Assembly (NCBI RefSeq): GCF_003056345.1
Contig: NZ_PYWB01000012.1
Coordinates: 1-64,000, forward strand
Direction: 5' to 3'
DNA length: 64,000 nucleotides
Origin: Devosia submarina
GTDB lineage: Bacteria; Pseudomonadota; Alphaproteobacteria; Rhizobiales; Devosiaceae
Below the pieces are notes generated by a model that was not told the DNA's origin, did no database searches, and saw only the letters and a program-made list of their open reading frames with translations. The stretch's first letter is position 1. Each line of letters opens with the position of its first letter. This document shows positions 28,940-52,050 of the stretch, piece after piece. The position numbers were made by a program, and so were the translations under genes.

Positions 28940-28973
28940 CGTGCGGCCAAGCGATTGACGTAATTTTCTATTC

Positions 28974-29008
28974 TTGACACTCTGGGTGTTCAGGAATTTA
29001 CTATTCCT
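28974..29008 (+). promoter_or_regulatory. promoter with overlapping GGAAT-N5-ATTCC operator
   Basis: TTGACA (28974-28979) is followed 18-19 bp later by TTACTA/TACTAT (28998-29004). The palindrome AGGAAT-N5-ATTCCT (28992-29008) covers this -10 region, so a bound RpiR-type repressor would block polymerase. Spacing and core bases match the site between murQ and murR. Confidence 0.72.
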
Positions 29009-29079
29009 CAAGCTGGTGTGCTGGAGAGGCTACCGGTGAGAGGGACCGTCGTAGGCGACGGAACAGTCGGAGACGCCAT

Positions 29080-30144
29080 TTGGCTCAACTTTCGCTGCGC
29101 GGCATCAAGAAGAGCTTCCGCAATGTCGACGTGCTCCACGGCATCGACCTGGAAATAGGCGACCGCGAATTCGTGGTGTTTGTTGGCCCTTCGGGTTGCG
29201 GAAAATCGACCTTGCTGCGGCTGATTGCTGGACTCGACCCGATGAGCGGGGGCGAGTTCCTGCTCAATGGCAAGCGCATGAACGACGTGCCGCCCTCGCG
29301 CCGGGGCATCGCCATGGTGTTCCAGTCCTATGCACTTTACCCGCATATGGATGTCTATGAGAACATGGCGTTCGGTGCGCGGCTGATGGGGCTCGACAAG
29401 GGCGAAGTGGAAGCGCGGATCGCGGAAGCGGCGCGCATGTTGCGGCTCGAGCCCTTGTTGCAGCGCAAGCCGCGCGAGCTTTCTGGCGGGCAAAGGCAGC
29501 GCGTTGCGATTGGCCGCGCGCTGGTGCGCAAGCCGCAGGTGTTTTTGCTGGATGAACCGCTTTCCAATCTGGACGCCGCGTTGCGGTCCGAGGTGCGGCT
29601 GGAAATTGCGCGCCTCCACCGCCAGATCGGCGGCACCATGATCTATGTCACTCACGACCAAGTCGAGGCGATGACGCTGGCCGACAAGATCGTGGTGATG
29701 AATGCGGGGCGGATCGAGCAGGTCGGCTCGCCGCGCGATCTTTATGAGACACCGGCCAACACTTTTGTTGCGACCTTTATCGGCTCGCCGCGCATGACGC
29801 TGGTGGATGTCCGATGCGAAGGCGAGCGGCTGGTGCTGCCCAATGGCGGCTCGGTGCATGTCGGCGCCTTGCCTGATGTGGGCGAGCTCAAGCTGGGCCT
29901 GCGGTCCGATGCGGTCAGGCTCAGCCGGACAGCGGGGGGCGATGGATTTGCCGGCCAGGTCGTCTACACCGAATATCTGGGCGACAATGCCTATGTTTAT
30001 GTCCGGCTGGCTGACGGAACGCTGGTCGCGGCGCGCACAGGCCCTGATGACCTTTTCGAGCCCGATCACATGGTGACCATTTCGGTGGAGCCAGGGTCGG
30101 TGCATCTGTTTTCCGCAGGGGATGGCCGACGATTGGTGCCATAG
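29080..30144 (+). CDS. sugar ABC transporter ATP-binding protein, UgpC/MalK type
   Basis: A 354-residue ATPase with Walker A GPSGCGKS (36-43), signature LSGGQ (134-138), Walker B VFLLDEP and [15 protein letters not shown], plus a C-terminal TOBE domain. The start is a TTG at 29080, supported by GGAG 7 nt upstream and by exact N-terminal alignment with the two sister ATPases in this window. It is first in the operon, unlike the other two sugar importers here where the ATPase is last. Confidence 0.9.
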   Translation: MAQLSLRGIKKSFRNVDVLHGIDLEIGDREFVVFVGPSGCGKSTLLRLIAGLDPMSGGEFLLNGKRMNDVPPSRRGIAMVFQSYALYPHMDVYENMAFGARLMGLDKGEVEARIAEAARMLRLEPLLQRKPRELSGGQRQRVAIGRALVRKPQVFLLDEPLSNLDAALRSEVRLEIARLHRQIGGTMIYVTHDQVEAMTLADKIVVMNAGRIEQVGSPRDLYETPANTFVATFIGSPRMTLVDVRCEGERLVLPNGGSVHVGALPDVGELKLGLRSDAVRLSRTAGGDGFAGQVVYTEYLGDNAYVYVRLADGTLVAARTGPDDLFEPDHMVTISVEPGSVHLFSAGDGRRLVP

Positions 30145-30188
30145 GCGCGGAGGGAAGTGCCTTGATATTCAATGGAGAGAGGGAACAC

Positions 30189-31430
30189 ATGAAAACCAAT
30201 ATTTTGCGCATCGGATCTGCCCTGGCAGCGATGCTTGTTGCGGCGCCCGCACTGGCGCAGGATCTGACGTTCTGGAGCTGGCGCCAGGAAGACCGCGCGG
30301 CCTATGAGCAGTTCATCGAGACGTTCGAGGCCGCAAACCCTGGCATTACGGTGAACTTCGAGACCTTTGAAGCCACCAATTACAACACCATTCTCTCAAC
30401 GGCCCTGGCCGGTGGTACCGGTCCCGACGTGATGATGGTGCGCGCCTATGGCGGGCTCGAGAATGTTGCGAGCGCCGGCTATCTCGAGCCGCTGAGCACA
30501 GAGACGATCCCGGCGCTGGCCGACTTCAGCGAAGCCTCGCTTGCGGCTGAAAGCATGCGCTCGGATGGCACGATCTATGCCGTGCCGTTCGCAAGCCAGA
30601 CGCAGCTGGTGATCTACAACAAGGCCTTGTTCGACCAGCATGGCATTAGCGAGCCGGAAAGCTGGGAAGAACTGGAAGCCGCCAGCCAGAAGCTGCTTGA
30701 TGCGGGCGTCATCCCCTTTGCCAATGGTACCGCAACGGCCTGGCAGAATGAAACCGTGACCTTTGGCCTGGGCTCCTCGCTCATGGGCAAGGACTTCTAT
30801 GACGAGCTGATGGCCGGCACTGCCGATTTCACCGATGAGCGTTTCACCGGCGCGCTGGCCGAGATCGCCGATCTTGCGGCCAAGTACTTCCCCGATGGCT
30901 TTATCGGCCTCGACTACCCCTCTGCCCAGCAATTGTTCGGCTCGGGTATGGCGGGCATGTTTGTGGGCGGCTCCTATGAAATCGCCACCTTCAAGAACAT
31001 GAACCCCGATATCGAAGTGGGTGTTTTCGCCGCTCCGGGCCAGACGGCCGAGGACGAAAAGCTCGTTGGCCTCTACTTTGACGGTGGTTACGCCGCCAAT
31101 GCGGCGGGCGCCAACAAGGAAGCAGCCCTGACCTTCCTCAACTACCTCGCCAGCCAGGAATTCGGCCAGGCGTTCGCCGACACGCTGAGCAATATTTCGA
31201 CTGTGCCGGGCGTTACCTTCCAGGACCCGCTGCTGGCCGAGGTGAACGAGCTCAACCAGTCTTCCATCCCCTATCTCATGCTGGCCCATTTCCGTTATGG
31301 CGAGCCATCGGGTTCGGTGCTGATCCAGGGTGAAATGCAGAAGCTGTTTGCCGGGGAAACGACGCCCGAGGCGATCGGTGAAGCGCTGACCACCGGCCTT
31401 GCTGCCTGGTACGAGCCCTTCCAGAACTAA
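30189..31430 (+). CDS. sugar ABC transporter substrate-binding protein, family 1
   Basis: A 413-residue periplasmic protein with a classic signal peptide ending ALAQ at about residue 22. Mature sequence starts DLTFWSWRQEDRAAYEQFIE. Family features include GTGPDVMMVRAYGGLENVA, YAVPFASQTQLVIYNKALFD and GMAGMFVGGSYEIA. GAGAGGGA precedes the ATG at 30189. Context with murQ, nanE and a BadF-type kinase suggests MurNAc, ManNAc or a related amino sugar as ligand. Confidence 0.88.
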   Translation: MKTNILRIGSALAAMLVAAPALAQDLTFWSWRQEDRAAYEQFIETFEAANPGITVNFETFEATNYNTILSTALAGGTGPDVMMVRAYGGLENVASAGYLEPLSTETIPALADFSEASLAAESMRSDGTIYAVPFASQTQLVIYNKALFDQHGISEPESWEELEAASQKLLDAGVIPFANGTATAWQNETVTFGLGSSLMGKDFYDELMAGTADFTDERFTGALAEIADLAAKYFPDGFIGLDYPSAQQLFGSGMAGMFVGGSYEIATFKNMNPDIEVGVFAAPGQTAEDEKLVGLYFDGGYAANAAGANKEAALTFLNYLASQEFGQAFADTLSNISTVPGVTFQDPLLAEVNELNQSSIPYLMLAHFRYGEPSGSVLIQGEMQKLFAGETTPEAIGEALTTGLAAWYEPFQN

Positions 31431-31437
31431 GAACTCC

Positions 31438-31467
31438 GGCGGTCCCTCCCATGCGCGAGGGGCCGCC
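31438..31467 (+). repeat. intercistronic stem-loop after the binding-protein gene
   Basis: Arms GGCGGTCCCT (31438-31447) and AGGGGCCGCC (31458-31467) form a 10-bp stem with one G-T pair, 7 nt after the stop. There is no T-run, so it is more likely a 3'-end stabiliser than a terminator. The sugar importer at 17.3-21.5 kb has a similar stem-loop in the same place. Confidence 0.6.
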
Positions 31468-31498
31468 ATCTTCCAGCGCCAGAGCGAAGCGAATTTTC

Positions 31499-32419
31499 AT
31501 GCCCCAACTTCGGATGACCGGCCGCGGCCTCTGGATCACCGTGCTGATTGTGCCGCCGCTGGCCTTTGTGGCGCTGTTTATCGTTTATCCAATCATTTCC
31601 GCCTTCGCCTATGCCTTTTTCGATTGGCAGGGATTGCGGCGCGGCGCGTTTGTGGGCCTCGAGAATTTCCACACCGTGCTGTTTGTGGAACCCTATCGCA
31701 GCTGGACGCTGAACGCCTTCAAGAACAACGTCCTGGTGTTCTTTGCGCTGATGGTGCTGCAGAACGGGCTGGGATTTGTTCTGGCCTATGCGCTGTGGCG
31801 CGAACTGCCGGGCGCGCGTTTTCATCGCATTGCGGTGTTCCTGCCGGTGGTGCTTTCGACCATCATTGTTGCCTATCTCTTCAAGCTGTTTTTGCACCCC
31901 CTGTTCGGTGTCGTGAACATCAGCCTGCGCGGGCTTGGGCTGGGCGAGCTGGCGCAGCCCTGGCTGGGGCAGAGCAATACGGCGCTGTGGTCGCTGATCG
32001 TGGCGCAGGCCTGGCACATGGTGGGTTTTCCCACGCTGGTGTTTCTCGCGGGCATGCAGCGAATCCCCAGCGAAATGCTGGATGCCGTGCGCATGGAAAC
32101 CCAGAGCGAATGGGTCAAGATCACCAAGATCGTCTGGCCGCTTGTGGCGCCCAGCGCCACCATTGTTTTTACCCTGCTGTTCGTGGGCGCGTTCAACTGG
32201 TTCGAGCTGCCCTATATCATGGCCGGGCTTGATGGCTCGCCCTTCGGGTCGACCGACGTGCTGGGGCTTTATTTCTATCGCACGGCCTTTGGCAATGTGT
32301 CCGCGGGCCAACAGAATTTCGGGCTGGGCAGCGCGCTGGCCGTCCTAATCTTTATCTTCATCGCGCTGGTTGCCACGGTGATCACGGTGCGGCTGCGGGC
32401 GCGGGAGATCCAGCTATGA
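31499..32419 (+). CDS. sugar ABC transporter permease, MalF/UgpA type
   Basis: A 306-residue permease with six membrane helices and an EAA loop MLDAVRMETQSEWVKITKIVWPLVAPS. I prefer the ATG at 31499, giving MPQLRMTGRGLW just before the first helix, to an ATG at 31451 whose N-terminus would be encoded by the stem-loop. It overlaps the next permease by 4 nt. Confidence 0.88.
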   Translation: MPQLRMTGRGLWITVLIVPPLAFVALFIVYPIISAFAYAFFDWQGLRRGAFVGLENFHTVLFVEPYRSWTLNAFKNNVLVFFALMVLQNGLGFVLAYALWRELPGARFHRIAVFLPVVLSTIIVAYLFKLFLHPLFGVVNISLRGLGLGELAQPWLGQSNTALWSLIVAQAWHMVGFPTLVFLAGMQRIPSEMLDAVRMETQSEWVKITKIVWPLVAPSATIVFTLLFVGAFNWFELPYIMAGLDGSPFGSTDVLGLYFYRTAFGNVSAGQQNFGLGSALAVLIFIFIALVATVITVRLRAREIQL

Positions 32420-33279
32420 GTGCGGGGGCGAGCACCTATGGCGATCGCCGCGGCATCCTGGGCGCGCTGGGGCGCGACGGGCTGCTGCAGGTCATCCTGG
32501 TGGCCAATACGGTTATCATGCTGGCGCCCATCGTGATCATGGTTTTTTCGGCGTTCAAAACGACGCCGCAGATCTTCCAATCGCCCTTCGGTATTCCTGA
32601 TTTCACTCAGGTGGCGAACTTTGCCAAGATCTGGAGCGAGACCAATTTCCTGCGCTATCTGCTGAATTCCTTTTTCGTCACCGGCACCTCCATGGTGCTG
32701 ATCCTGACGCTGGGAACCATGGCGGCCTATGCGATCGGGCGGTATCAGTTTACCGGCGCAAGCTTCATCCTGATGTTTTTCTTGGCCGGGCTGACGCTGC
32801 CGCTCAAGCTCGCCATCATTCCGCTGTTCATGCTGATGCGGGACCTTTCGATCCTCAACAACCAGCTCTCGCTGATTTTTGTTTATACGGCGATGGGCCT
32901 GCCCACGACCGTCTTCATCATGACGGGCTTCATCAGGACACTGCCCAGCGAGCTGGAGGATGCGGCGCGCATGGATGGGGCCAGCGAAGCGCGGATCATG
33001 TGGTCGATCATGCTGCCGCTGGTGAGGCCCGCCATGGTGATTGCCGGGATCCAGAATGTCGTGCCGATCTGGAACGACTTCTTTTTTCCGCTGGTTTTCA
33101 TCCAGAACGATAGCCTCAAGACCCTGCCGCAGGGCTTGACGACGTTTATGGGCGAATACACCACCGATTGGGGCGTGCTGTTTGCCGGGCTGACGCTGTC
33201 GGCGGCGCCGATTATCGTGATCTATATCCTGCTTTCCAAGCAGTTCATTGCCGGCATGACTTCGGGGGCGGTGAAATGA
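32416..33279 (+). CDS. sugar ABC transporter permease, MalG/UgpE type
   Basis: A 287-residue permease with six membrane helices, EAA loop ELEDAARMDGASEARIMWSIMLPLVRP and the MalG-group C-terminus FIAGMTSGAVK. Its ATG overlaps the upstream stop (ATGA) and its own stop overlaps the nanE start, so the transporter and enzymes are translationally coupled. Confidence 0.9.
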   Translation: MSAGASTYGDRRGILGALGRDGLLQVILVANTVIMLAPIVIMVFSAFKTTPQIFQSPFGIPDFTQVANFAKIWSETNFLRYLLNSFFVTGTSMVLILTLGTMAAYAIGRYQFTGASFILMFFLAGLTLPLKLAIIPLFMLMRDLSILNNQLSLIFVYTAMGLPTTVFIMTGFIRTLPSELEDAARMDGASEARIMWSIMLPLVRPAMVIAGIQNVVPIWNDFFFPLVFIQNDSLKTLPQGLTTFMGEYTTDWGVLFAGLTLSAAPIIVIYILLSKQFIAGMTSGAVK

Positions 33280-33941
33280 GGCTTGCGCATGGGCTGATCG
33301 TTTCGTGCCAGGCCAGGGCCGACAATCCCCTCCATGGGCCGCAGTTCATGGGGGCGATGGCGCTGGCGGCGCGGGATGGCGGGGCCGTGGCGATCCGGGC
33401 CAATGGGGCGGCTGATATTGCGGCGGTGAAGGCGGCGGGCCTGCCGGTGATCGGCATCAACAAAGTGTTTGCGGCGGATCGGCCGGTTTACATTACGCCA
33501 AGCTTTGAGGCAGCAGCCGAAGTGGTGGCGGCAGGGGCCGATGTGGTGGCCCTTGATTGCACCGATCGGCCACGGCATGGCGAGGCGCCCGCCGTTCTGG
33601 TGCGGCGCATTCGCGAGGAATTGGGGGCGGAGGTTTTCGCCGATATTTCAACGCTGGATGAGGGGCTGAAGGCGGCCGATTGGGGCGCCCATTACATCGC
33701 GACAACGCTGTCGGGGTACACGGCAGAAACCGAACCGCGGCCGGAATTTCCGGATTTGGCACTGCTGGAAGGCTTGGCCAAGCGGGTGTCCGTGCCTGTT
33801 GTGGCCGAGGGGCGGTTCAATTCGCCCGAACTCGTGCGGCAGGGCTTTGAGGCGGGGGCATTCGCCGTGGTGGTGGGGACGATGATCACCAATCCGCGCG
33901 AGATTACCCGCATGTTCATCAGGCAGGGCGTGCCGGTGTGA
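33276..33941 (+). CDS. nanE: N-acetylmannosamine-6-phosphate 2-epimerase (second copy)
   Basis: A 221-residue NanE with canonical motifs: GLIVSCQARADNPLHGP (7-23), GAVAIRA, PVIGINK with catalytic Lys63, YITPSFEAA, ATTLSGYT (142-149) and VAEGRFNSPE with Glu179, ending VVVGTMITNPREIT. The Lys context is GINKVFAA, where NanE usually has GIVKRD. It is embedded between the transporter permease and the BadF-type kinase with overlaps on both sides. That places a ManNAc-6-P to GlcNAc-6-P step in the MurQ cluster. Confidence 0.9.
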   Translation: MRLAHGLIVSCQARADNPLHGPQFMGAMALAARDGGAVAIRANGAADIAAVKAAGLPVIGINKVFAADRPVYITPSFEAAAEVVAAGADVVALDCTDRPRHGEAPAVLVRRIREELGAEVFADISTLDEGLKAADWGAHYIATTLSGYTAETEPRPEFPDLALLEGLAKRVSVPVVAEGRFNSPELVRQGFEAGAFAVVVGTMITNPREITRMFIRQGVPV

Positions 33942-34882
33942 GCAGAATGGTTCACCTCGGCATCGACATTGGCGGCACGGCGACCCGCTGGGTGGCGTGT
34001 GATGACGAGGGGGTCGAGATCGCCCGGGGACGGGGACCGGGGGCGACCGGGCATTTGTTTAATCCGGCCGAGCGGGTGCGGCTTGAAACGGCTTTGCGGG
34101 CGGTTGTCGCGGGGCTGGCGGATGGAGGGCTGGCGGCGCAATCGGTGACGGCCGGAATTACCGGCTTTGGTGCCGCGGTGCTTGGGGAGTTGCAGGGACT
34201 CTTGGTGCCGCTGTTTTCCGTCGATTCGGGGCGCCTTGTGGTCACCGATGATATCGTCATGGCCTATGCGGCGAATTTTGCGCCGGGTGAGGGGCATCTG
34301 GTGTCGGCGGGAACAGGGTCGATTGGTGTTTTCATTGGTGCCGGGGGCGAATTGGTTCGCGTCGGGGGCAGGGGAATTCTGATCGATGATGCGGGATCGG
34401 GCGGCTGGATCGCGTTGCGGGCGCTTGATCGGGTGTTTCGCACGCTGGACCGGCAAGGCTCGTTTGCGGGCTGCGAAAGGCTGGCGGATCAGCTGTTTGC
34501 GGCCATAGGCGGGGTCAGCTGGCACGATGTGCGGCAGTTTGTGTATTCAGCCGATCGTGGCCGGATCGGGACCCTGGCCGTTGCGGTGGCAAGGGCTGCG
34601 GCAGAGGGCGACGCGGTTGCGCAGGGGGTATTGGAGCGGGCCGGGGAGGAGTTGGCAGAGCTTGCGCTGGCGCTTGTTGCCAGGGCAGGAAAGCGGCCGG
34701 TGGGGTTGATTGGAGGGGCCTTGGGGCTGCATCCCCTGATCCTTGAGACGGTTCGGCGGCAATTGGCTGTGATCGATGTTCGTGTGCTTGATGCCGATGG
34801 CGCTCTGGCGGCCGCGAGGCTACAGACCGATCGGGATGATCGCTGGCGCGTTGTGCTGTCGCGGCAATCCTCGATCGGGTGA
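33938..34882 (+). CDS. BadF/BadG/BcrA-type sugar kinase, N-acetylglucosamine/MurNAc kinase-like
   Basis: A 314-residue member of the acetate/sugar-kinase/Hsp70 fold. It has the ATP-binding LGIDIGGTATRWV at the N-terminus, DDIVMAYAANF (about 103-113), phosphate-binding VSAGTGSIGVF and the NAGK-type RGILIDDAGSGGWIALRAL. Clostridium MurK, a kinase for MurNAc and GlcNAc, is of this family. The GTG at 33938 overlaps the nanE stop; an ATG 9 nt later is an alternative. It would phosphorylate the sugar imported by the adjacent ABC system, as no PTS is present. Confidence 0.82.
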   Translation: MSRMVHLGIDIGGTATRWVACDDEGVEIARGRGPGATGHLFNPAERVRLETALRAVVAGLADGGLAAQSVTAGITGFGAAVLGELQGLLVPLFSVDSGRLVVTDDIVMAYAANFAPGEGHLVSAGTGSIGVFIGAGGELVRVGGRGILIDDAGSGGWIALRALDRVFRTLDRQGSFAGCERLADQLFAAIGGVSWHDVRQFVYSADRGRIGTLAVAVARAAAEGDAVAQGVLERAGEELAELALALVARAGKRPVGLIGGALGLHPLILETVRRQLAVIDVRVLDADGALAAARLQTDRDDRWRVVLSRQSSIG

Positions 34883-34904
34883 TCGAGCGGAAAAGGACGG
34901 GTAT

Positions 34905-35651
34905 TTGGACCGGGACGACAGTGTAAATGCCGAACTCGGCAAGAAGCGGCTCTATCAGGTGGTGGCGCTGCGCATCGCCCGCATGATCGAGGCCCATGCC
35001 AATGATCCGTCCTGGCGATTGCCGTCCGAGCGGGAGCTGGCCGAGGAACTTCAGGTCAGCCGGCCATCCATCCGCGAGGCTGTTATTGCGCTCGAGATGC
35101 GTGGGCTGGTTGAGGTGCGGGGGCGCGCCGGGATCGAGATCCTGCCGCAGCGTTCCAACCAGATCAGCTTCGATGCCATCAATACCGATATCGGGCCGGG
35201 GCCGTTTGAACTGCTGCAAGCGCGGCTTGCCGTGGAGTCCGGTGCTGCTGCGATCGCGGCGCAGCGGGCGAACAGCTATGATCTGATGCGACTCGAGGAC
35301 AGTATTTCGCGCATGCACGCGGAAGGCGCATCGCTCCTTCACAACGAAAAGAACGACCGGGAATTCCACATGACCATTGCCCATATGACGGGCAATGCGA
35401 TCATCGTTTCCATCATGGAGGCGCTTTGGGCGCAGCGGGATGCCTCCCGGATGTGGAAAAAGATCCAGGAGCATATTCACGCCGAAGCGGTTCGTCCGCT
35501 CTGGGTGGGCGATCACCATGCCATTCTGTCGGCCATGAAGCTGCGCAATGGGGACGCCGCCTTCAAGGCGATGGCCCGTCACATCAACAATGTATCAGAG
35601 GAATTGCTGCAGGCGGACGAGCGCAGCCGGCTTGCCGCGCAAAAAGATTAG
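34905..35651 (+). CDS. GntR family regulator, FadR/FCD subfamily
   Basis: A 248-residue regulator with a winged helix (about residues 12-85, LPSERELAEELQVSRPSIREAVIALEMRGLVEVRGRAGIEIL) and an FCD domain (REFHMTIAHMTGN, VGDHHAILSAMKLRN). I chose the TTG at 34905, preceded by AAGGACGG; an ATG far upstream would lie inside the kinase gene. It is very similar to the regulator at 36031-36822, which faces it across a VOC gene. It may control the 36.8-43.7 kb genes or the VOC gene 12 bp downstream. Confidence 0.85.
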   Translation: MDRDDSVNAELGKKRLYQVVALRIARMIEAHANDPSWRLPSERELAEELQVSRPSIREAVIALEMRGLVEVRGRAGIEILPQRSNQISFDAINTDIGPGPFELLQARLAVESGAAAIAAQRANSYDLMRLEDSISRMHAEGASLLHNEKNDREFHMTIAHMTGNAIIVSIMEALWAQRDASRMWKKIQEHIHAEAVRPLWVGDHHAILSAMKLRNGDAAFKAMARHINNVSEELLQADERSRLAAQKD

Positions 35652-35663
35652 GGAGGGGATGGC

Positions 35664-36056
35664 ATGCTGAAGGGGTTCGAGCATGTGGGTATTACGGTTA
35701 AGAACATCGACAAGAGCCTGGCGTTCTATGTGGATCTGCTGGGGCTGAAATTGCTGGTGCGCCGCCCGGGTCAAAACGGGGACGAGATGGCGTTTCTTGA
35801 TGCCAAGGGGCCGATGATCGAGATGATCTGCCCGGCGACGGGCGCGCTGACGGCCGAGGATGTTGCCGTGGGACGCGCCGGGGTGCGCCACCTCACTTTC
35901 AACTTCGAGAGCGTGGATGAAACCTACCGCAAATTGCTCGATGCAGGCGTCGACATGGTCGAGCCACCACGCGACGCCCACAACCGCGACATAGCGCGCC
36001 GGCTCGCCTTTTGCCGGGACCCCGATGGGATCATGATAGAGCTGATCGAGCGCTGA
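35664..36056 (+). CDS. VOC family (glyoxalase/bleomycin-resistance fold) protein
   Basis: A 130-residue single-domain VOC protein with two beta-alpha-beta-beta-beta modules. Likely metal ligands are His7 (FEHVGITVKN), Glu53 (IEMICP), His76 (RHLTFNF) and Glu127 (IMIELIER). The set is complete for a glyoxalase- or epimerase-type metal site. It follows the GntR gene by 12 bp and its last 26 bp overlap the end of the opposing GntR gene. The substrate is unknown; sugar-related lyases and epimerases of this fold are often found beside Gfo/Idh/MocA genes. Confidence 0.85.
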   Translation: MLKGFEHVGITVKNIDKSLAFYVDLLGLKLLVRRPGQNGDEMAFLDAKGPMIEMICPATGALTAEDVAVGRAGVRHLTFNFESVDETYRKLLDAGVDMVEPPRDAHNRDIARRLAFCRDPDGIMIELIER

Positions 36057-36822
36057 TCGACCCTGAACCGTTGAGGCGCGCCTTTTCGTCGGCTTCGAGC
36101 AGTTCGTCGATCACATTGCGAATGTGCCGGGCCATGGCCTTGTAGGCGGCATCTGGGTTGCGCAGGCGAATGGCCGAAAGGACCGCATGATGATCGCCAA
36201 TCCAGAGCGGGCGGACATCGGGAGCATGGATATGCTCGTGCAATTTCTTCCACATGACCGAGTGGTCCCGCTGGACCCATAGGGCTTCGGTCATGGACAG
36301 GATGATGGCGTTGCCGCTGATCCGGGCGATGTTGAGGTGGAAGTCGCGGTCGCCCTTTTCGTTCAGCAAGACCACTTCGCGTTCCAGCTGCATCTGCTCG
36401 ATGCAGGCTTCAAGGATGGCGTGGTCGGCGGTTGTCGCGCGTTCGGCAGCCATGGCGGCGGCACTGGCTTCAATGGCCAGGCGCGCTTCGAGCAACTCGA
36501 ATGGTCCGGGGCCGATATCGGCATTAAAGGTATCGAAGCTGATGGGCCTTGTGGGTTGCTCCAGCACGACAATGCCTGTGCGGCCGCGAACCTCCACCAG
36601 GCCCAGCATTTCAAGCGCTATGATCGCCTCGCGGATCACCGGGCGGCTGACGCCCAGCTGGTCAGCCAATTCCCGCTCGGATGGGATGCGCCAATCCGCC
36701 ATGTGCCCATTAGACTGGATCATGGCGGCGATCTTTTGGGCTACTGTTTGGTAAAGGCGCGGCGTGCTGCCGGGCCGCACCTCCAATGCGCGGTCTATTC
36801 TGTCCTTTTCCGCGCTGCTCAT
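36031..36822 (-). CDS. GntR family regulator, FadR/FCD subfamily (paralog of the 34905 gene)
   Basis: A 263-residue regulator with winged helix IPSERELADQLGVSRPVIREAIIALEMLGLVEVRGRTGIVVL and FCD segments DRDFHLNIARISGNA and IGDHHAVLSAIRLRN. Long stretches match the 34905-35651 protein almost word for word, including DIGPGPFELLEARLA and KAMARHIRNV. It lies 10 bp downstream of the Gfo/Idh/MocA pair on the same strand. The TGGTC-A-GACCA sites upstream of that pair are the natural operator for this or the sister protein. Confidence 0.88.
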   Translation of the reverse strand: MSSAEKDRIDRALEVRPGSTPRLYQTVAQKIAAMIQSNGHMADWRIPSERELADQLGVSRPVIREAIIALEMLGLVEVRGRTGIVVLEQPTRPISFDTFNADIGPGPFELLEARLAIEASAAAMAAERATTADHAILEACIEQMQLEREVVLLNEKGDRDFHLNIARISGNAIILSMTEALWVQRDHSVMWKKLHEHIHAPDVRPLWIGDHHAVLSAIRLRNPDAAYKAMARHIRNVIDELLEADEKARLNGSGSISARSALS

Positions 36823-36832
36823 CTCCGATGCC

Positions 36833-37915
36833 CTAAGCTGCAGCCTCGGTGTCGGGCAGCCAGGATTTGTAGAGAGGATGATCGGCCTCGATCGGCATTG
36901 GTGTTGGCTGGCCGGTTCGCTGGGAATGGTAGGCTGCCGTTACCAGCTCCAGGGAATTGCGGGCATCCTGGAGGGTCACCGGTGGCTCTGCATCGGCCAT
37001 GATCGCCTCGTGGAAAAGCTCGAACTGCCTGGTGTAGCCGTCTTCCTTGTTCTCGTAAGTGCTCAGGGCCTCGTCAACGCGCTTTTGGTGCTCGGGCGTG
37101 CCGGCGGTGAATTGCCAGGGGTCGCGCCCCATTGTGTAGGGCTCAAGAATGCTTTCGGCGACCAGATCATGGAAGCAAAAGCGCAGGCGCGAGATTTCCT
37201 TGCGGGATCCCAGGGTCATCGACAGGGTCGCAAGGGAGCCGTTCTGCATCTTGACGGCGAGCGCCATCGTATCCTCGACCTCGATCTTGTTTACCAGGGT
37301 CGCGCCATAGGCGAAGAGCTCTGCGCAAGGACCATGCACATAGTTCAGCATGTCATGGGCGTGGATGGCATGGCCAAGCAGGCCCCCGCCGAGTTCAGTG
37401 GCCCATTTGCCGCGCCATGGCACTTCATAATAGGCCGGGCCGCGCCACCAATGGGTCTCGATGGTGGTCATAAAGGGCTTGCCGGTGAGCCCTTCCTCGA
37501 TAAGCAGCTTGAGCTTTTGCAGCCCCGTGCCATAGCGATACTGGAAGATGGGCATGAGCTTGCGGTCCGATCTCTGCACGATCTCGCTCATGGCATCCAC
37601 ATCGGCAATGGAGCCGAACAGGGGCTTTTCGCAGATCACGTGCTTGCCCGCTTCGATGGCGCGACGCGACAGCTCGAAATGGTTGTGCGGGGGGGTGCAA
37701 ACGTCGATGACGTCGATGTCGTCCCGCCCGAAAAGCGTCTCCACATCCTGCGTATACTCAGGGATGCCGAATTTCTGGCAGAGGTTTCGCCCACGGTCTT
37801 CATCCAGGGAGCAGAGCACGGGCACGTCAAAAAGCGCCTTGTTCCACTGGTAGCCCATGAGGTGTCGTTCGGCGATACCCGCACCGATCACCGCGACCCG
37901 CAACTTCCTGCTCAT
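36833..37915 (-). CDS. Gfo/Idh/MocA family oxidoreductase
   Basis: A 360-residue NAD(P)-dependent sugar dehydrogenase. The Rossmann part starts KLRVAVIGAGIAERHL and contains the family's EKP motif (VICEKPLFG, 96-98). The C-terminal substrate domain includes WWRGPAYYEVPWRGKWATELGGGLLGHAIHAHDML, with the catalytic His region. I chose the ATG at 37915, overlapping the upstream dehydrogenase stop by 4 nt; the frame remains open upstream in antisense to that gene. It probably oxidises a ring hydroxyl of the sugar imported by the divergent ABC system. Confidence 0.9.
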   Translation of the reverse strand: MSRKLRVAVIGAGIAERHLMGYQWNKALFDVPVLCSLDEDRGRNLCQKFGIPEYTQDVETLFGRDDIDVIDVCTPPHNHFELSRRAIEAGKHVICEKPLFGSIADVDAMSEIVQRSDRKLMPIFQYRYGTGLQKLKLLIEEGLTGKPFMTTIETHWWRGPAYYEVPWRGKWATELGGGLLGHAIHAHDMLNYVHGPCAELFAYGATLVNKIEVEDTMALAVKMQNGSLATLSMTLGSRKEISRLRFCFHDLVAESILEPYTMGRDPWQFTAGTPEHQKRVDEALSTYENKEDGYTRQFELFHEAIMADAEPPVTLQDARNSLELVTAAYHSQRTGQPTPMPIEADHPLYKSWLPDTEAAA

Positions 37916-38931
37916 GACTGCTTTCCTCCAGAGATATGCGTCGCCTTTTGCTGTGCCTCGAGCGAGAGCCTGCACACTTCGAACACGTGTTCCTGGCTCA
38001 TTGCCGTGTCGGTGCGGTTCTGCACGTCGGCGACAAAGCTGGTGAAGTAGTCGAGTGGCTCGTTGCTGCAATCGATGTGCTGGACGCCGGATTTGTCGAC
38101 GATAAAGAGGTGATCCTTGCCTTCCCGTCCGGCGATATCGACATATTTGCGCAGCTCGATATAGCCTTCGGTCCCCAGGATCGTGAGGCGTCCATCGCCC
38201 CATGTGGGCAGGCCATCGGGGGTGAACCAGTCGACGCGAATATAGCCAGCTCCTTGCTCGCTACGCAGCAGCACTTCGCCGAAATCCTGGAAGTCGGCGC
38301 TTTGAGGGGTGTTGAAATTGCCGACCGAACTGGCGACGATTTCTGCCGTGCCCGAGCCGGTGTAGAACAGGAATTGATCGATCTGGTGGGAGGCAATGTC
38401 GACGATAATGCCGCCAAAGGCGTCCAGGTCGAAGAACCATGAGGGGCGGCTCGCCGGGGAAAGCCGGTGTGGTCCCATGCCGATGGTTTGAACGACGCTG
38501 CCTATGGCACCATCCCTAACGAGCTTGCCGGCCTTTACCGCGGAGGGAACGCAAAGGCGCTCCGAAAAGCACACGGAGAACATGCGGCCAGTTTCGGCCA
38601 CCGCGCGCCTGACTTCCTCCAATTGGTCGAATGTGGTGACGCCCGGCTTGTCGACGATCACGTCCTTTCCGGCGCGCATCGCCTGAATAGCAAGGCCCGA
38701 GCGATCCCGCGGAACTGCGGCAATGCAGACGACATCAATGCTGGGATCATCAAGCAGAGCCTGCCGGTTGGTTCGGGGGGCTTCGGGATATTTCTGCCCG
38801 ACCGTTTCGACCAGCGCGGGCACGGTTGTTTCAGGGCAATAACCGGCAAATTCTGCGCCGGCGTCCAGCAGCCCGTCGATATGGTTGAAGATGTGGCCGT
38901 GGTCGATGCCAATCGCGGCAAATCTCAGCAT
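37912..38931 (-). CDS. Gfo/Idh/MocA family oxidoreductase, divergent type
   Basis: A 339-residue dehydrogenase. Its N-terminus LRFAAIGIDHGHIFNH lacks the usual GxGxxG loop, and the EKP motif is DKP (VIVDKPGVTT, 94-96). The catalytic Lys95 is kept, and GGIIVDIASHQIDQFLFY provides the usual aspartate/histidine region. It is the first gene of a minus-strand operon with a second dehydrogenase and a GntR regulator. It is divergent from a sugar ABC importer across a 259-bp interval with FadR-type operators. Confidence 0.85.
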   Translation of the reverse strand: MLRFAAIGIDHGHIFNHIDGLLDAGAEFAGYCPETTVPALVETVGQKYPEAPRTNRQALLDDPSIDVVCIAAVPRDRSGLAIQAMRAGKDVIVDKPGVTTFDQLEEVRRAVAETGRMFSVCFSERLCVPSAVKAGKLVRDGAIGSVVQTIGMGPHRLSPASRPSWFFDLDAFGGIIVDIASHQIDQFLFYTGSGTAEIVASSVGNFNTPQSADFQDFGEVLLRSEQGAGYIRVDWFTPDGLPTWGDGRLTILGTEGYIELRKYVDIAGREGKDHLFIVDKSGVQHIDCSNEPLDYFTSFVADVQNRTDTAMSQEHVFEVCRLSLEAQQKATHISGGKQS

Positions 38932-38986
38932 TCATGAATTCCCTGGATCAAGGTAGGTCCTTGATCTGGCCGGCGCAGTCGCGATC

Positions 38987-39133
38987 TGGTCAGACCAAAT
39001 GGGGTCAGTGCATATCAAGGATCGCGCTCTGTCAAGCGGCCTTCAGCTGACATCGAGCCCAGCAATGCCGCTATTGACAAGAATGCGCGTTAACCGCAAC
39101 TTGCTGGTCAGGCCAGTGGACTTGGCCAGACCA
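38987..39133. promoter_or_regulatory. divergent control region with three FadR-type operators
   Basis: A perfect palindrome TGGTCAGACCA lies at 38987-38997. Two one-mismatch copies follow: TGGTCAGGCCA (39105-39115) and TGGCCAGACCA (39123-39133), 18 bp apart. The TGGTC-N-GACCA form matches operators known for FCD-type GntR proteins. A TTGACA lies at 39074-39079, so the two downstream copies would sit around or just after the transcription start of the importer operon, and the first near the dehydrogenase promoter. Confidence 0.75.
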
Positions 39134-39190
39134 GAGCGCTTCAGGGTCGGGAGGAGCCGTTACCTCGGGGCGGATGTGGAGGAGAAATGA

Positions 39191-40465
39191 ATGAAGCTTT
39201 CTAGTCTTCGTCTATCTTGCGCTTTCGGCGTCCTGATGTTCGCCAGTGCACCGGCGCTTGCTCAGGAAATCACTGTCGTCTGCGACGACCTGGGTTTTGG
39301 CTGCAACACCATCCAGCCGGTGGCCGACAAATTCATGGAAGAAAATCCCGGTAAGACCGTCAACCTCGAGATCGTGCCCTATCAGTCGATGGTGGAAAGC
39401 CTGCCGGTGCAGCTGGCATCGGGTGAAGGGCCGGACGCGGCGATTGTCACCGATCTTGGCGGGCTGAGCCGCTATTATCTGGACCTCACCCCTTACGTCG
39501 ATCCCGCTACGTTCAACGAGAATTTCGAGCAAACGCTGCAATGGCTGCGCGGTGGTGATGCTGAAAGCACCGCCATCAATGGCATGCCGACATCGCTGAC
39601 GGTGAACGGCGGCTATGTGAATTTGACGCTGTTTGAGCAGGCCGGTGTCGAGGTGCCCCCAGAAGGGGCGACGTGGCAGGAATGGGCTGCGGCCACGCGC
39701 GAGGTTGCGGAGGCCACCGGCACCGAATTTGCCATGGAGATGGACCGCTCCGGGCATCGCTTTGCAAGCCTTGCGATCAGCCATGGCGCAGAACTGGTCA
39801 GCGAGGACGGCAAGCCTGTGGTTGATGACGGCCTGCGCGCCGCGATCGAGCAGTTCGTTGAGTGGCACCAGGACGGCACCATGCCGATGGATCTTTGGGG
39901 CGCCGTGGGTGGTGCGACGCACCGGGAGCTGTTCTCTGACTTCCTCAACGCGAACACGGTGCTTTATTTCGGTGGCTCCTGGACGCTGAGCCAGATGGAC
40001 CAGGAAGTGGGCGATCTGTTTGACTGGAAGGTCATTCCCGCTCCGTGCGGTCCGTCCTCCTGTACCGTCATGCCGGGCGGTGGTGCGCTGGTGGCGTTCC
40101 AGCATACCGACCAGCCCGAACTGGTGGGTGCGTTCATCAACTACCTGGCCCAGCCCGAAAACCTCAGCCAGGTTCTGGCGGCGGCCGTGGAGATCCCGGC
40201 TGCCTCGACGCTGATCGAAAGCGGCATCGAATATCCCGGAGCATCGGAGCGCACCCAGGAGGCTCTCGCGACCTTTATTGCGCAGATCCCCAAGATGGCA
40301 CCGGCTGCCTATCGCTTCCAGGGCTGGCGTTACCAGCGCGCCATGATGAACGCGCTGACCACCCGCATCAGCCAGGTGCTCAACGGGGAACTGGACGTTG
40401 ATGGCGCCCTGGAGCGCATCGAGCAGGATGTGAACCTGGCCATCGAGGCGGCCGAGGCTCAGTAG
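39191..40465 (+). CDS. sugar ABC transporter substrate-binding protein, family 1
   Basis: A 424-residue periplasmic protein with a signal peptide ending ALAQ (about residue 25). The mature N-terminus EITVVCDDLGFGCNTIQP carries two cysteines, and CGPSSC later carries two more, so disulfides are possible. Family features are KFMEENPGKTVNLEIVPY and GEGPDAAIVTDLGG. GGAGGAG precedes the ATG. It is first in a four-gene CUT1 operon divergent from two sugar dehydrogenases. Confidence 0.88.
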   Translation: MKLSSLRLSCAFGVLMFASAPALAQEITVVCDDLGFGCNTIQPVADKFMEENPGKTVNLEIVPYQSMVESLPVQLASGEGPDAAIVTDLGGLSRYYLDLTPYVDPATFNENFEQTLQWLRGGDAESTAINGMPTSLTVNGGYVNLTLFEQAGVEVPPEGATWQEWAAATREVAEATGTEFAMEMDRSGHRFASLAISHGAELVSEDGKPVVDDGLRAAIEQFVEWHQDGTMPMDLWGAVGGATHRELFSDFLNANTVLYFGGSWTLSQMDQEVGDLFDWKVIPAPCGPSSCTVMPGGGALVAFQHTDQPELVGAFINYLAQPENLSQVLAAAVEIPAASTLIESGIEYPGASERTQEALATFIAQIPKMAPAAYRFQGWRYQRAMMNALTTRISQVLNGELDVDGALERIEQDVNLAIEAAEAQ

Positions 40466-40488: not shown

Positions 40489-41487
40489 ATGAGTGCTTCA
40501 CTTCGCATTGCCCGCGCGACAGGGGCGGTGGCATCCTTGCCCGCGCGGGCCATCGAGCCTCTCATGGCAGGGCTGCAAAAGGCGATCGGCATCAAGAAGA
40601 TGCCCTGGTTCTTTTTGCTGCCAAACCTGCTTGCAGTGATCCTGTTCTCCCTGCTGCCGGTGTTCGTCAACATCTTCTATTCGTTCACCGGCAGCGACCG
40701 CCTTTATCCATCCCAACGCCCGTTTATCGGCACCTATAATTACGAAACGCTGCTTGATTGCGGCAATTACCTTGATCCCTCAACCTGCTCGCGGGACCTG
40801 TTCTGGCGCGCGCTGGGCAACAGCCTTGTGTTTGTGCCGACGCAGGTGGCAGCCATGATCGGGATCGCGCTCCTGACGGCCATATGCCTCAATGGCAATA
40901 TCAGGGGCCGCGGCTTTTTCCGGGGTGTGTTCTTTTTCCCTGTCATGCTCTCGCCCGTGGTGGTGGCCCTCACCTGGCAATGGATATTGCAACGAACGGG
41001 GGTGCTGAACGGGATCCTCACCAATCTGGGCTTTGAACCCGTCAACTGGCTGGTTTATGCCAATTCGGCATTCTTCTGGTCGGTGTTCGTCACGGTCTGG
41101 GCCCATATGGGGTTCTACACCATTATCCTGCTGGCCGGCCTGCAAGCCATCCCGCGCGATGTCTATGAAGCGGCCAAGATGGATTCCGCCAGCCATTGGC
41201 GTGCCTTTACCCGCATTACCCTGCCGCTGCTCAAGCCGGTCCTTTTGGTGGTGTTTATCCTTGCGGTGATCCGCTCGGTGCAGACGTTTGATGAGCTTTA
41301 TGTGCTGACGGGCGGGGGGCCGGGGTCAGCGACCTTGCTGATGGTGCAGTATATCTACGAGATCGGGTTTGCCGTGCAGCCACGCAATTTCGGGCTGGCG
41401 GCGGCGGCCTCGCTGCTGCTTGGCATCGTGCTCCTCATCTTCACCCTGGTTCAACTGCGCATTTCGCGAGGTTCAAGCAATGGCTGA
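40489..41487 (+). CDS. sugar ABC transporter permease, MalF/UgpA type
   Basis: A 332-residue permease. A 40-residue cytoplasmic lead precedes the first helix (FFLLPNLLAVILFSLLPVFVNIFYSF). The first periplasmic loop contains two cysteines (LLDCGNYLDPSTCSRD). The EAA loop is VYEAAKMDSASHWRAFTRITLPLLKP, and LTGGGPGSATLLMVQYIYEIGF follows. The gene overlaps the next one by 8 nt. Confidence 0.9.
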   Translation: MSASLRIARATGAVASLPARAIEPLMAGLQKAIGIKKMPWFFLLPNLLAVILFSLLPVFVNIFYSFTGSDRLYPSQRPFIGTYNYETLLDCGNYLDPSTCSRDLFWRALGNSLVFVPTQVAAMIGIALLTAICLNGNIRGRGFFRGVFFFPVMLSPVVVALTWQWILQRTGVLNGILTNLGFEPVNWLVYANSAFFWSVFVTVWAHMGFYTIILLAGLQAIPRDVYEAAKMDSASHWRAFTRITLPLLKPVLLVVFILAVIRSVQTFDELYVLTGGGPGSATLLMVQYIYEIGFAVQPRNFGLAAAASLLLGIVLLIFTLVQLRISRGSSNG

Positions 41488-42568
41488 CCTAAGCTTGGCG
41501 AGTTCCACAGGCGGTGTGCGCAACATGCTCCTTGGCCGGCGGGGACGGGGGAGGCTCCACATCTCGGACGTGCTGACCTATGGCTATCTGCTGCTGGGCG
41601 TCCTTGTTATGTTCGCGCCGGTGATCTGGGTGGTGTTGTCCTCGTTCAAGACCTCCGCGGCGTTGCAGGAATTTCCACCGACGCTGCTGCCCTATTCCAC
41701 CGAGCAGGTTGTCGTGGAGGGCTATGAGGGGACGCTGCCGCTTTTCGATGTCATCACGGAAAGTGGTGACGTGGTGCAGCTGGCGCAGATCCGGCGGGTG
41801 GGGCTCAATGCGCAGATGGTTGATCCGACCGATCCTGAGGCGGGGCGGATCGTTGTGCCGGTGGCCAATGCGACGCCGGTGCGTGAGATCCATTTCGCGG
41901 TCGAGAACTATGTGCAGCTGCTGGCGAGTTCAGGCAGCGAGATCTGGCGCTTTGTGTTCAACAGCCTTTTCATCACGGTCGCTGCAACGATCATCACGTT
42001 GATCATGAACTCGATGGCCGCTTTTGCCCTCTCGAAATACAGGTTCAGGGGCGACAGCCTGGCTCTCGTTGCTATTTTGTCGACGCTGATGATCCCCGCG
42101 ACCGTTGTGCTTGTTCCGACCTATCTGATCGTGGCGCAGCTGGGGCTGGTGAACAATTTGTGGGGCGTGATCCTGCCCACGGTTGCAACACCCACCGGGG
42201 TGTTCCTGCTGCGGCAGTATATGCTGACCATCCCCGATGAGTTGATCGAAGCCGCCCGGATGGATCATGCGAGCGAATGGCGCATCTTCTGGCGCATCAT
42301 CCTGCCGCTATCCTCCCCTGCGCTGGCCGTGGTCGCGATTTTTTCCATCCTGTCGCGCTGGAACGACTTCCTTCTGCCGCTGGTCGTGCTGAACCGGCGC
42401 GAAGTGTTCACGCTGCAGCTCGCGCTTGCATCGTATCAGGACGAGAACGTGGTGCGCTACGAGCAGCTCCTGGCGATGACGACGCTGACGGCGCTGCCGC
42501 TGGCCTTCGCCTTTATTTTCCTGCAGCGCTATATCACGAGCGGCATCGCCTCAACCGGCATCAAGTGA
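41480..42568 (+). CDS. sugar ABC transporter permease, MalG type with long periplasmic loop
   Basis: A 362-residue permease, about 70 residues longer than the two sister MalG-type permeases in this window. The extra length lies between helix 1 (YGYLLLGVLVMFAPVIWVVLSSF) and helix 2. It is a polar segment of about 100 residues including VVVEGYEGTLPLFDVITESG and GRIVVPVANATPVREIHF, with beta-strand-like alternation. MalG proteins carry a smaller such loop that contacts the binding protein. EAA loop: ELIEAARMDHASEWRIFWRIILPLSSP. I chose the ATG at 41480, which overlaps the upstream stop. Confidence 0.88.
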   Translation: MADLSLASSTGGVRNMLLGRRGRGRLHISDVLTYGYLLLGVLVMFAPVIWVVLSSFKTSAALQEFPPTLLPYSTEQVVVEGYEGTLPLFDVITESGDVVQLAQIRRVGLNAQMVDPTDPEAGRIVVPVANATPVREIHFAVENYVQLLASSGSEIWRFVFNSLFITVAATIITLIMNSMAAFALSKYRFRGDSLALVAILSTLMIPATVVLVPTYLIVAQLGLVNNLWGVILPTVATPTGVFLLRQYMLTIPDELIEAARMDHASEWRIFWRIILPLSSPALAVVAIFSILSRWNDFLLPLVVLNRREVFTLQLALASYQDENVVRYEQLLAMTTLTALPLAFAFIFLQRYITSGIASTGIK

Positions 42569-42577
42569 GGTCCAGCC

Positions 42578-43663
42578 ATGGCCAATCTCGTTCTTGAAAA
42601 CATCACCAAATCCTTCGGGCTGGTCGAGGTCATTCCCAGCATCAATCTCGAAATCACGGACGGGGAGTTCGTGGTGTTTGTCGGCCCCTCGGGATGCGGG
42701 AAATCAACGCTCCTGCGGTTGATTGCAGGGCTGGAGGATGCCAGCTCGGGCGATATCCGGATCGATGGGGAGAGCGTGATCAACGTTCCGGCGGCCGATC
42801 GGGGCGTCGCGATGGTATTCCAATCCTATGCGCTTTATCCGCATATGACCGTGCGGGAAAACCTCAGCTTCGGGCTTGAAAACATCCGCATGCCGAAAGG
42901 GGAGATCGAGCAGCGCGTTAGCAAGGCTGCGGCGCTGCTGCAGATCGAGCAATTGCTGGAACGCCGGCCCAAGCAATTGTCGGGCGGGCAGCGCCAGCGC
43001 GTGGCGATCGGGCGGGCGATTACGCGCGATCCCAAGATTTTCCTGTTCGACGAACCGCTGTCCAATCTGGATGCCGAGCTGCGCGTGCTGATGCGCGTCG
43101 AGATCACCAGCCTGCACCAGAGGCTGGGCAATACCATGATCTATGTCACCCATGACCAGATCGAGGCGATGACCATGGCCGACAAGATCGTCGTCCTGCG
43201 CGGCGGCAGGATCGAACAGGTTGGCGCGCCGCTCGAGCTCTACAACAAGCCGCTCAACACTTTCGTGGCCGGCTTCATCGGCTCGCCGCGCATGAATTTC
43301 GTGCAAACAAAAGTGGTCGAGAATTCCGAAGCAGGCATTACCCTATCTGGGGAAGGCCTGCCGAACCTGACCTTGCCGGTGCAAGGCCTGCCCCTGCCAG
43401 CGGGGGCAGCCGCGACCCTGGGCATCAGGCCCGAGCATCTCGTTCCCTCCGCGGATGGCTGGCCGCTCAAGGTGACGCTTGCCGAGCAGCACGGGGCCAG
43501 CAGCTATCTCCATTGCATGACGCCGAATGGAACGCCGATCCTTGTGCATGAACCCGGGCAAAGCCGGTTGCGTAGCGGGGACATTCTCCATGTTTCACCC
43601 GCCGCAGGGGAATGGCACCTGTTTGACGAAGAGGGCTTGCGTGTCGAGCCTTCAGGTCCTTAG
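42578..43663 (+). CDS. sugar ABC transporter ATP-binding protein, UgpC/MalK type
   Basis: A 361-residue ATPase with Walker A GPSGCGKS (36-43), signature LSGGQ (134-138), Walker [23 protein letters not shown] and a C-terminal TOBE-type domain with LGIRPEHL. It starts 9 bp after the permease and ends the importer operon, converging on the flavoprotein gene at 43721. Confidence 0.92.
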
Positions 43664-48717: not shown

Positions 48718-49422
48718 TCAGCGGCCGGGTTCGGTCGAGAACAGGCGGCTGCGCGAGCCGGTGAGGTGGGCGTGCATGAGTTGGCGGGCGCGGGCTGAGT
48801 CGCCGTCGCGGATGGCTTCATAGATGGCCGTGTGCTCGACGAAAACGTGGCGGAGGCCGTCCTGCGTGCTTTTGAGGGACAAGCCGTGCAGCCGCATGCC
48901 CACGGCGATATGTTCTTCAAGGGCCTGCATGGCGGTTACGAAGTAAGGATTGCCGGCAGCCTGGGCGATGCTGAGGTGGAACATGAAATCGGCGTCGGCG
49001 CGGTGGGCCTGGCGATTGGTGGCGTCGCGCAGGAGGGCGAGCTCGCGCTTGATTTTTTGCAGGGCTTCTTCGGAGCGCCGATTGGCGGCCATGGCGGCGG
49101 CTTCCGGCTCGATGGTGAGGCGGAAATCGTAGCAATGCTGGAGATCGGAGAGGTTCTCCATCTGCCCAAAGCCGAGTGGTTCGCGGATGCCCTGTTCGCG
49201 CACGAAGCTACCGGCGCCGCGACGGGAATAGATGAAGCCCTGGTCGCGCAGGCGCTGCAGCGCCTCGCGGATAATGGGGCGCGAAACGCCAAACTCGGCG
49301 GCAAGGGCGTGCTCGGTCGGCAGGCGCTCGTCCACGGCATAGGCGCCTGATTTGATGGATCGCTGGATGCGCTCGAAAACCGTATCTGCGAGGCTGCGGC
49401 GCCCGACAAGACTATCCGACAT
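48718..49422 (-). CDS. GntR family regulator, FadR/FCD subfamily
   Basis: A 234-residue regulator with winged helix (about 5-78, LPTEHALAAEFGVSRPIIREALQRLRDQGFIYSRRGAGSFV) and an FCD domain (DADFMFHLSIAQAAGNPYF, FVEHTAIYEAIRDGD). I chose the ATG at 49422 (MSDSLVGRR), which overlaps the kinase gene by 11 nt; the open frame extends upstream within that gene. It is last in the minus-strand operon of the acid-sugar unit. It most likely controls both arms of the divergent unit through the region at 55487-55790. Confidence 0.87.
   Translation of the reverse strand: MSDSLVGRRSLADTVFERIQRSIKSGAYAVDERLPTEHALAAEFGVSRPIIREALQRLRDQGFIYSRRGAGSFVREQGIREPLGFGQMENLSDLQHCYDFRLTIEPEAAAMAANRRSEEALQKIKRELALLRDATNRQAHRADADFMFHLSIAQAAGNPYFVTAMQALEEHIAVGMRLHGLSLKSTQDGLRHVFVEHTAIYEAIRDGDSARARQLMHAHLTGSRSRLFSTEPGR

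Positions 49423-50444: not shown

Positions 50445-50452
<8 letters not shown>
49412..50452 (-). CDS. four-carbon acid sugar kinase family protein (DUF1537/OtnK-DtnK type)
   Basis: A 346-residue kinase. The N-terminal substrate domain begins LAIIADDLTGALDAA (Asp9-Asp10) and contains LFKKVDSRLKGNIAAELDAL. The C-terminal nucleotide domain has LVLSGGATAQVILQHLGI, PGLPLARAGGLTVATKSGGFGDPETL. Relatives phosphorylate threonate, erythronate or related acids at O-4, and the product goes to a PdxA2 or aldolase/decarboxylase. A PdxA2 gene stands in the divergent arm. It is shorter than many relatives (about 420 residues), mostly between the domains. I chose the ATG at 50452, overlapping the transporter gene by 8 nt. 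Confidence 0.85.

Positions 50453-52050
<1,598 letters not shown>

Follow-up and report, generated by a model that had tools for sequence, protein, structure and literature searches.

Gene organization of the locus

The window analyzed here, by which we mean the whole stretch of 64,000 nucleotides of Devosia submarina DNA, contains a divergent intergenic region of 259 bp (38932..39190) bounded by two divergent gene starts, 38931 (minus strand) and 39191 (plus strand). The minus-strand start is that of Gfo1 (37912..38931; PF22725, PF01408 and PF02894), a Gfo/Idh/MocA oxidoreductase. It is followed by a second oxidoreductase of the same type, Gfo2 (36833..37915, minus strand; PF01408, PF22725 and PF02894), the start of which overlaps the Gfo1 stop (ATGA). 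After Gfo2, on the same strand, comes the GntR/FCD regulator R2 (36031..36822; PF00392 and PF07729), tied to the dehydrogenases by genomic association. On the plus strand, the gene for R1, a GntR/FCD paralogue of R2, has an inferred TTG start (34905..35651, the profile match having been obtained with the longer ORF 34776-35651) and is followed by an ORF of the VOC/glyoxalase superfamily (35664..36056, plus strand; PF00903 at 72.5 bits, cut-off 20.6), relatives of which adjoin the regulator gene in many of the related loci. Preceding R1 is an importer operon (29080-34882) with a NanE-like (N-acetylmannosamine-6-phosphate-epimerase-like) gene and a BadF/NagK-like kinase.

The plus-strand start at 39191 opens an ABC importer composed of a solute-binding protein (39191..40465; PF01547), permease 1 (40489..41487; PF00528), permease 2 (41369..42568; PF00528) and an ATPase of the MalK/UgpC type (42578..43663; PF00005, PF17912 and PF08402; NF008653 at 462.4 bits, cut-off 432), all on the plus strand. 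The listed ORF of permease 2 overlaps permease 1, so its true start is probably further in. A third GntR/FCD gene, R3 (48718-49491), belongs to another gene cluster with its own regulator, where the end of a gene of the SBD_N/NBD_C type (four-carbon acid sugar kinase-like) overlaps it, the two together covering 48718-50485. In a scan of the NCBIfam collection, Gfo1 and Gfo2 had no model above cut-off and the binding protein had no model at all. Compared with PDB sequences, the binding protein matched sugar- and oligosaccharide-binding proteins (best E-value 2.1e-11), Gfo1 was close to the unannotated oxidoreductases 3u3x and 2p2s, and Gfo2 to 3q2k. A scan of about two dozen window proteins detected no uronate-pathway families, and a literature search returned no paper on this locus recognizable by its title.

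The local FCD regulators

The original prediction had envisaged two GntR paralogs. This stands for the genes at 36031-36822 and 34905-35651, whose products share 58% identity over their alignment, but three FCD genes occur nearby and the product of the one at 48718-49491 (R3) is only 29% identical to either. On the basis of this identity and of its location in the other cluster, R3 was rejected as a binder. Both R2 and R1 present an N-terminal GntR winged helix-turn-helix (PF00392 at 61.9 and 53.4 bits, respectively, cut-off 27) and a C-terminal all-helical FCD domain (PF07729 at 81.4 and 72.4 bits, cut-off 24.3). In the 13 aligned R proteins, residues E48, R59 and R63 (numbered without the first Met) are invariant, and were equated with the DNA-contact residues Glu34, Arg45 and Arg49 of Atu1419 by spacing and not by superposition. 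Likewise invariant in all 13 are D157, H161, H210 and H232. Many FCD domains harbor a metal site made up of an Asp and three His residues, to which these four positions may correspond.

The predicted model of R2 (mean pLDDT 79.6) has helices between residues 106 and 252, and a Foldseek search with it matched FCD regulators including DhdR-DNA, NanR, Atu1419 and FadR-DNA, with TM-scores by query length of 0.33-0.47 among the 50 matches listed. Two C-terminal-domain entries match the model at an rmsd of 3.2-3.5, and the full-chain rmsd values above 11 indicate that the model does not capture how the domains are placed relative to each other. The best NCBIfam models were those of ExuR/UxuR, although R2 and R1 reach only 144.6 and 148.1 bits against an ExuR cut-off of 396. 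With 118.5 (R2) and 91.5 bits (R1), both also fall so far below the NCBI equivalog cut-off of 311 for LldR that neither is filed as LldR. By their sequences, R1 and R2 look like LldR and ExuR, a resemblance that stops short of an established identity with either.

Probable operator sites in the intergenic region

Three short palindromes, here termed operators, were found in the gap, in agreement with the one perfect and two near-perfect elements originally predicted. Operator 1 (TGGTCAGACCA, 38987..38997), on the dehydrogenase side, is a perfect palindrome without mismatches to TGGTCNGACCA, and operators A (TGGTCAGGCCA, 39105..39115) and B (TGGCCAGACCA, 39123..39133), on the importer side, carry one mismatch each. 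The predicted start-to-start distance of 18 bp between A and B was likewise confirmed, and these two sites lie 118 and 136 bp from operator 1. All three fit the TKGT-N3-ACMA operator of the FadR subfamily, the site at 38987 being exact and those at 39105 and 39123 each departing by one mismatch from TGGT-N3-ACCA. Five sites with at most one mismatch to TGGTCNGACCA occur in the 64-kb window, three of them inside the 259-bp gap. When the gap was dinucleotide-shuffled 20,000 times, at least one site appeared in 194 of the shuffles and two sites in none.

A genome search for the motif had been proposed as a check of the original prediction. The only exact copy of TGGTCAGACCA in the whole genome of 3,980,379 bases (3.98 Mb) is the one at this locus. 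Across the genome the single motif shows no enrichment, CTGGTNNNACCAG with one mismatch allowed yielding 179 matches versus 262 for the reversed control. At up to two mismatches the window as a whole is also unremarkable (32 sites versus a shuffle mean of 26.0, with 14 of 100 shuffles reaching at least 32). With the single motif below its reversed control, a genome-wide regulon was dropped and no further targets are claimed among the matches listed. A relaxed pair (TGGYNNNRCCA-N4-18-TGGYNNNRCCA) was discarded as unspecific, since at least 60 of 75 genus genomes match it and control counts are similar; in genome G000 it gave one match and one control match among the matches listed. In the genome of the window, where operators A and B have a degenerate inner half (2/3 sites), the strict exact pair is absent. 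With sites 11-17 bp apart, that pair had six matches in 151 genomes, each in the counterpart of this gap in another genome, and its reversed control had four matches in three genomes. The support for the sites is thus their clustering and conservation, not their abundance.

Conservation in related gaps

Relatives of the locus came from two scans. The first covered named genomes (587 confirmed stretches, of which the best 80 were kept) and had its nearest matches in Devosia, Chelativorans, Pelagibacterium and Martelella; the second covered 151 genomes, among them the window's own. After duplicates had been merged, 14 loci besides the window presented Gfo1 and the binding-protein gene divergently across a gap. 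At least one exact TGGT-N3-ACCA was found in each of the 15 gaps first compared, amounting to 33 copies versus 0.04 expected from shuffles (43 versus 1.4 at up to one mismatch), in regions that are related to one another, so that the counts are not independent. In a ranking of 4,096 palindrome patterns (four-base halves, gaps of 0-15), this word comes first (15/15 regions), followed by CTGG-N5-CCAG (10/15), a word overlapping it. The conserved core is TGGT-N3-ACCA, and its three central bases vary (CAG, CAA, CTT, TTA, AAG, CAT and others). Of the half-site logic of FCD-type GntR proteins that had been invoked for these elements, the operator class is supported, but the element as first written is narrowed to this core.

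Two loci were added later from a 397-genome order sample, in which at least three genomes matched (the window's own included); six candidates were scored per genome, so that further matches may have escaped. These two present only one-mismatch versions, the one in L194 again lying 3 bp after a TTGACA. Conservation in relatives had been set beforehand as a test on which the prediction could fail; the prediction withstood it, the exact motif being present in 15 of the 17 related gaps. A counterpart of operator 1 was identified in 13 of the 14 other gaps, L143 being without a good dehydrogenase-side site, and on the importer side L031, L142 and L147 have a single site. The nearest relative (G063, locus L140) retains all three sites, with mismatches. 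Left out of the gap counts were L155 (G110), in which the homologues are not divergent (gap 0), L151 (G087), in which neither a regulator gene nor a motif upstream of Gfo1 was found, L152 and L153 (G112), where Gfo1 is split into two parts by contig ends, and also L154 (G118), with a Gfo1 at 57%. In L150 (G038) and L035, the homologues of permease 1, the ATPase and Gfo2 were each matched in two pieces, which suggests frameshifts or assembly errors in that genome.

The motif follows the regulator

Among the 80 named loci, all seven with an R1/R2-type gene (at least 285 bits) carry TGGT-N3-ACCA in the 350 bp preceding Gfo1, and the motif is found there in none of the 73 loci in which no such gene was found. 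The latter comprise 68 loci without a regulator match at E 1e-5 and five with a weak FCD-GntR match (27-30% identity). As a group they are the more distant relatives, so that the comparison is not free of phylogeny; in seven of them less than 3 kb of sequence follows the start of Gfo1, so that a regulator past the edge would be missed, and one (L088) offers only 13 bp of upstream sequence. Across the genus, R-type genes (E <= 1e-50) were detected in 12 of 75 genomes, and the same 12 have a Gfo1 match above 70% identity. At the level of sequence, the sites, their positions, their conservation and their association with the regulator are established.

One of the seven loci, L034 from Martelella radicis, falls outside the 15 gaps because no adjacent binding-protein gene was found. 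It presents the order Gfo1-Gfo2-R with no divergent importer found and, upstream, a TTGACA followed by a near-operator, TGGTCTGTCCA (read by eye), the exact site being further up. In L193 (G467), where a search of the stretch found neither Gfo1 nor Gfo2, an R-type gene is directly divergent from the importer genes across a gap that carries TGGCCATACCA and TGGCCTTACCA. In G063 (L140) and G016 (L141), R1 and the VOC-family ORF adjoin the dehydrogenase operon.

Promoter geometry

A promoter scan of the gap returned no consensus promoter, and the geometry is for this reason read from TTGACA only. The candidate -35 element of the dehydrogenase operon is a minus-strand TTGACA at 39030..39035, 32 bp from operator 1, with a -35-like TTGATA (39013-39018) as an alternative 15 bp from it; that of the importer operon is a plus-strand TTGACA at 39074..39079, 25 bp from operator A. 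The distance from a minus-strand TTGACA to the dehydrogenase-side operator is exactly 19 bp in 11 of 15 regions, and that from a plus-strand TTGACA to an importer-side operator is exactly 3 bp in 11 of 15. Together with the conservation of the sites, these distances support the proposal that they are placed so as to serve both divergent units.

The spacing of the importer-side sites varies among the relatives. Nine regions have a second site whose start precedes that of the first by 25-26 bp, the pair straddling the -35 TTGACA. In the window and its two nearest relatives (L140 and L030), the start-to-start distance between operators A and B is 18, 19 and 19 bp, the inner half of both sites is TGGC and not TGGT, operator A follows the importer-side TTGACA by 25 bp in each case, operator 1 is 32-34 bp away from the dehydrogenase-side TTGACA (which reads TTGACG in L030), and operator B is 57-59 bp from the binding-protein start. 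The reading of 18 bp as a paired-binding distance was accordingly abandoned, this value being a property of the species group. If a 17-bp spacer is assumed, operators A and B would here cover the transcription start and the early leader.

Comparison with known systems

The sites recall several described operators. The E. coli LldR box is given as AAnTGGTCnGACCAnTT in PMC10272880, and LldR resembles R2 as a GntR-type protein whose operon includes a dehydrogenase and, in its case, a permease; LldR senses lactate, however, and R2 and R1 score below the LldR model cut-off. A FadR consensus is quoted as AACTGGTCNGACCAGTT in PMC3626644. PMC4494728 describes the FadR subfamily by TKGT/ACMA, typically with 3 nt between GT and AC, and counts ExuR among the regulators with this spacing. 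E. coli ExuR/UxuR thus share it, but R1 and R2 score far below the corresponding cut-off. According to the same paper, many FadR-subfamily divergons have two independent sites, the distance between which rises with intergenic length, a growth that is read there as a mark of independence. The present gap is similar in its TKGT-N3-ACMA palindromes, each near its own gene, and differs in a third site on the importer side and in a regulator placed after two structural genes. Atu1419, the VanR-type regulator of Agrobacterium fabrum, is an FCD protein that matches the R2 model structurally, and its palindromes overlap the -10 or lie between the -35 and -10 elements; it differs, according to PMC7797058, by its motif (ATGTATACAT), by being a tetramer that loops DNA, and by its role in hydroxycinnamate degradation. 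The sequence TGGTNNNACCA, attributed to PMC7660256, was set aside from this comparison.

Alternative interpretations

That the near-palindromes arose by chance or composition and have no function is hardly credible: words with up to two mismatches are indeed common in the window, and the motif falls below its reversed control genome-wide, but not one of the shuffled gaps carried two sites and the fixed distances from TTGACA are conserved in 11 of 15 regions. Nor does it seem at all probable that the palindromes act as RNA hairpins, in an attenuator or a protein-binding leader, instead of as DNA operators. The importer-side pair (39104-39134) does fold into a 12-pair stem of -19.8 kcal/mol (z -1.81, equaled by 11 of 200 shuffles), which in this clade would lie at or past the inferred start. 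No terminator was called in the gap, however, operator 1 is a separate 11-bp palindrome, and in the 11 relatives with an importer-side operator 3 bp after TTGACA the site would be upstream of any transcript from that promoter.

A regulator tetramer could also bridge operator 1 and operators A/B in a repression loop, as in Atu1419, for which PMC7797058 reports looping between sites 190 bp apart, the distances here being 118 and 136 bp. The helical phase does not look random, given that the remainder on a 10.5-bp turn is 4.0-6.5 in 10 of 14 regions, but this common remainder is near half a turn and comes from related regions, and the Atu1419 motif is unlike the one reported here. Moreover, the distance separating operator 1 and the final importer-side operator varies between 121 and 185 bp (remainders 1.0 to 10.0) and is larger in longer gaps (Spearman 0.85, p 0.0001, n=14). 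This favors a separate operator set at each promoter rather than a fixed loop and leaves looping an unlikely arrangement.

Within the operator interpretation, the identity of the binder is a more balanced matter, and it is a serious, if slightly disfavored, possibility that R1 is the main binder or that the sites are common to R1 and R2. R1 and R2 agree at 42 of 64 HTH positions, with the PSERELA stretch and the DNA-contact residues invariant, and in G063 the sole regulator match at E <= 1e-50 is of the R1 type (34/41 candidates scored), in the presence of three retained sites, so that R1-type proteins probably read the sites too. Binding by R1 might tie the dehydrogenase/importer unit to the amino-sugar-like importer operon preceding R1. 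Against this, R2 shares the strand and gene run of Gfo1, whose start adjoins operator 1; TGGT-N3-ACCA at up to one mismatch is found neither in the gap before the ATPa gene (28940-29079) nor just before R1; and genes of the amino-sugar operon were not found beyond R1 in G063 and G016 (about 6.8 and 11 kb read), which argues against a conserved tie.

A model for the control region and its implications

The three words between the sugar-type dehydrogenase genes and the sugar-type importer are very probably docking sites for a neighboring GntR-family protein, with R2 as the prime candidate and R1 as the second. Taking the evidence together, we consider it highly likely that they are operators of a local FadR-subfamily (FCD) GntR regulator that would repress both promoters until a catabolite releases it. 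In such a switch, operator 1 would be occupied by a dimer of R2, and/or of R1, that blocks the dehydrogenase-regulator operon, and operators A and B by dimers that block the importer operon, each operator set serving its own promoter with no fixed loop. A compound derived from the imported substrate would then bind the FCD domain and free the protein from DNA. Import, oxidation and expression of the regulator gene itself would rise together, and expression of both operons would last until the imported compound is gone. Binding, repression, the promoters, the operon structure, the effector and the dominant paralogue are the components of this model that we infer from sequence.

The operator set is real, conserved, well placed and of an ordinary kind, and the unusual part is the clade-specific rearrangement. 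A second regulator copy, R1 facing R2, is found in the window and in L030, and only R1 in L140. It might be speculated, at long odds, that in this species group (the window, L030 and L140) the control region was rebuilt when the second copy appeared, the importer pair closing from 25-26 to 18-19 bp, its inner halves changing from TGGT to TGGC and the TTGACA moving from between the importer sites to 25 bp upstream of both, and that two paralogues, or a mixed dimer, may read the unlike half-sites, in which case the switch would answer two signals. Single TGGC-type halves also occur, however, in L144, L193 and L194, and the arrangement persists in L140, which has R1 only.

General knowledge of GntR regulation is unchanged by these operators. 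An alphaproteobacterial catabolic locus with two dehydrogenases, an ABC importer and a GntR regulator gains a testable control circuit and an operator sequence, and the related genomes provide a small series of natural variants, with a rearranged promoter and operators in those that have a second regulator copy.
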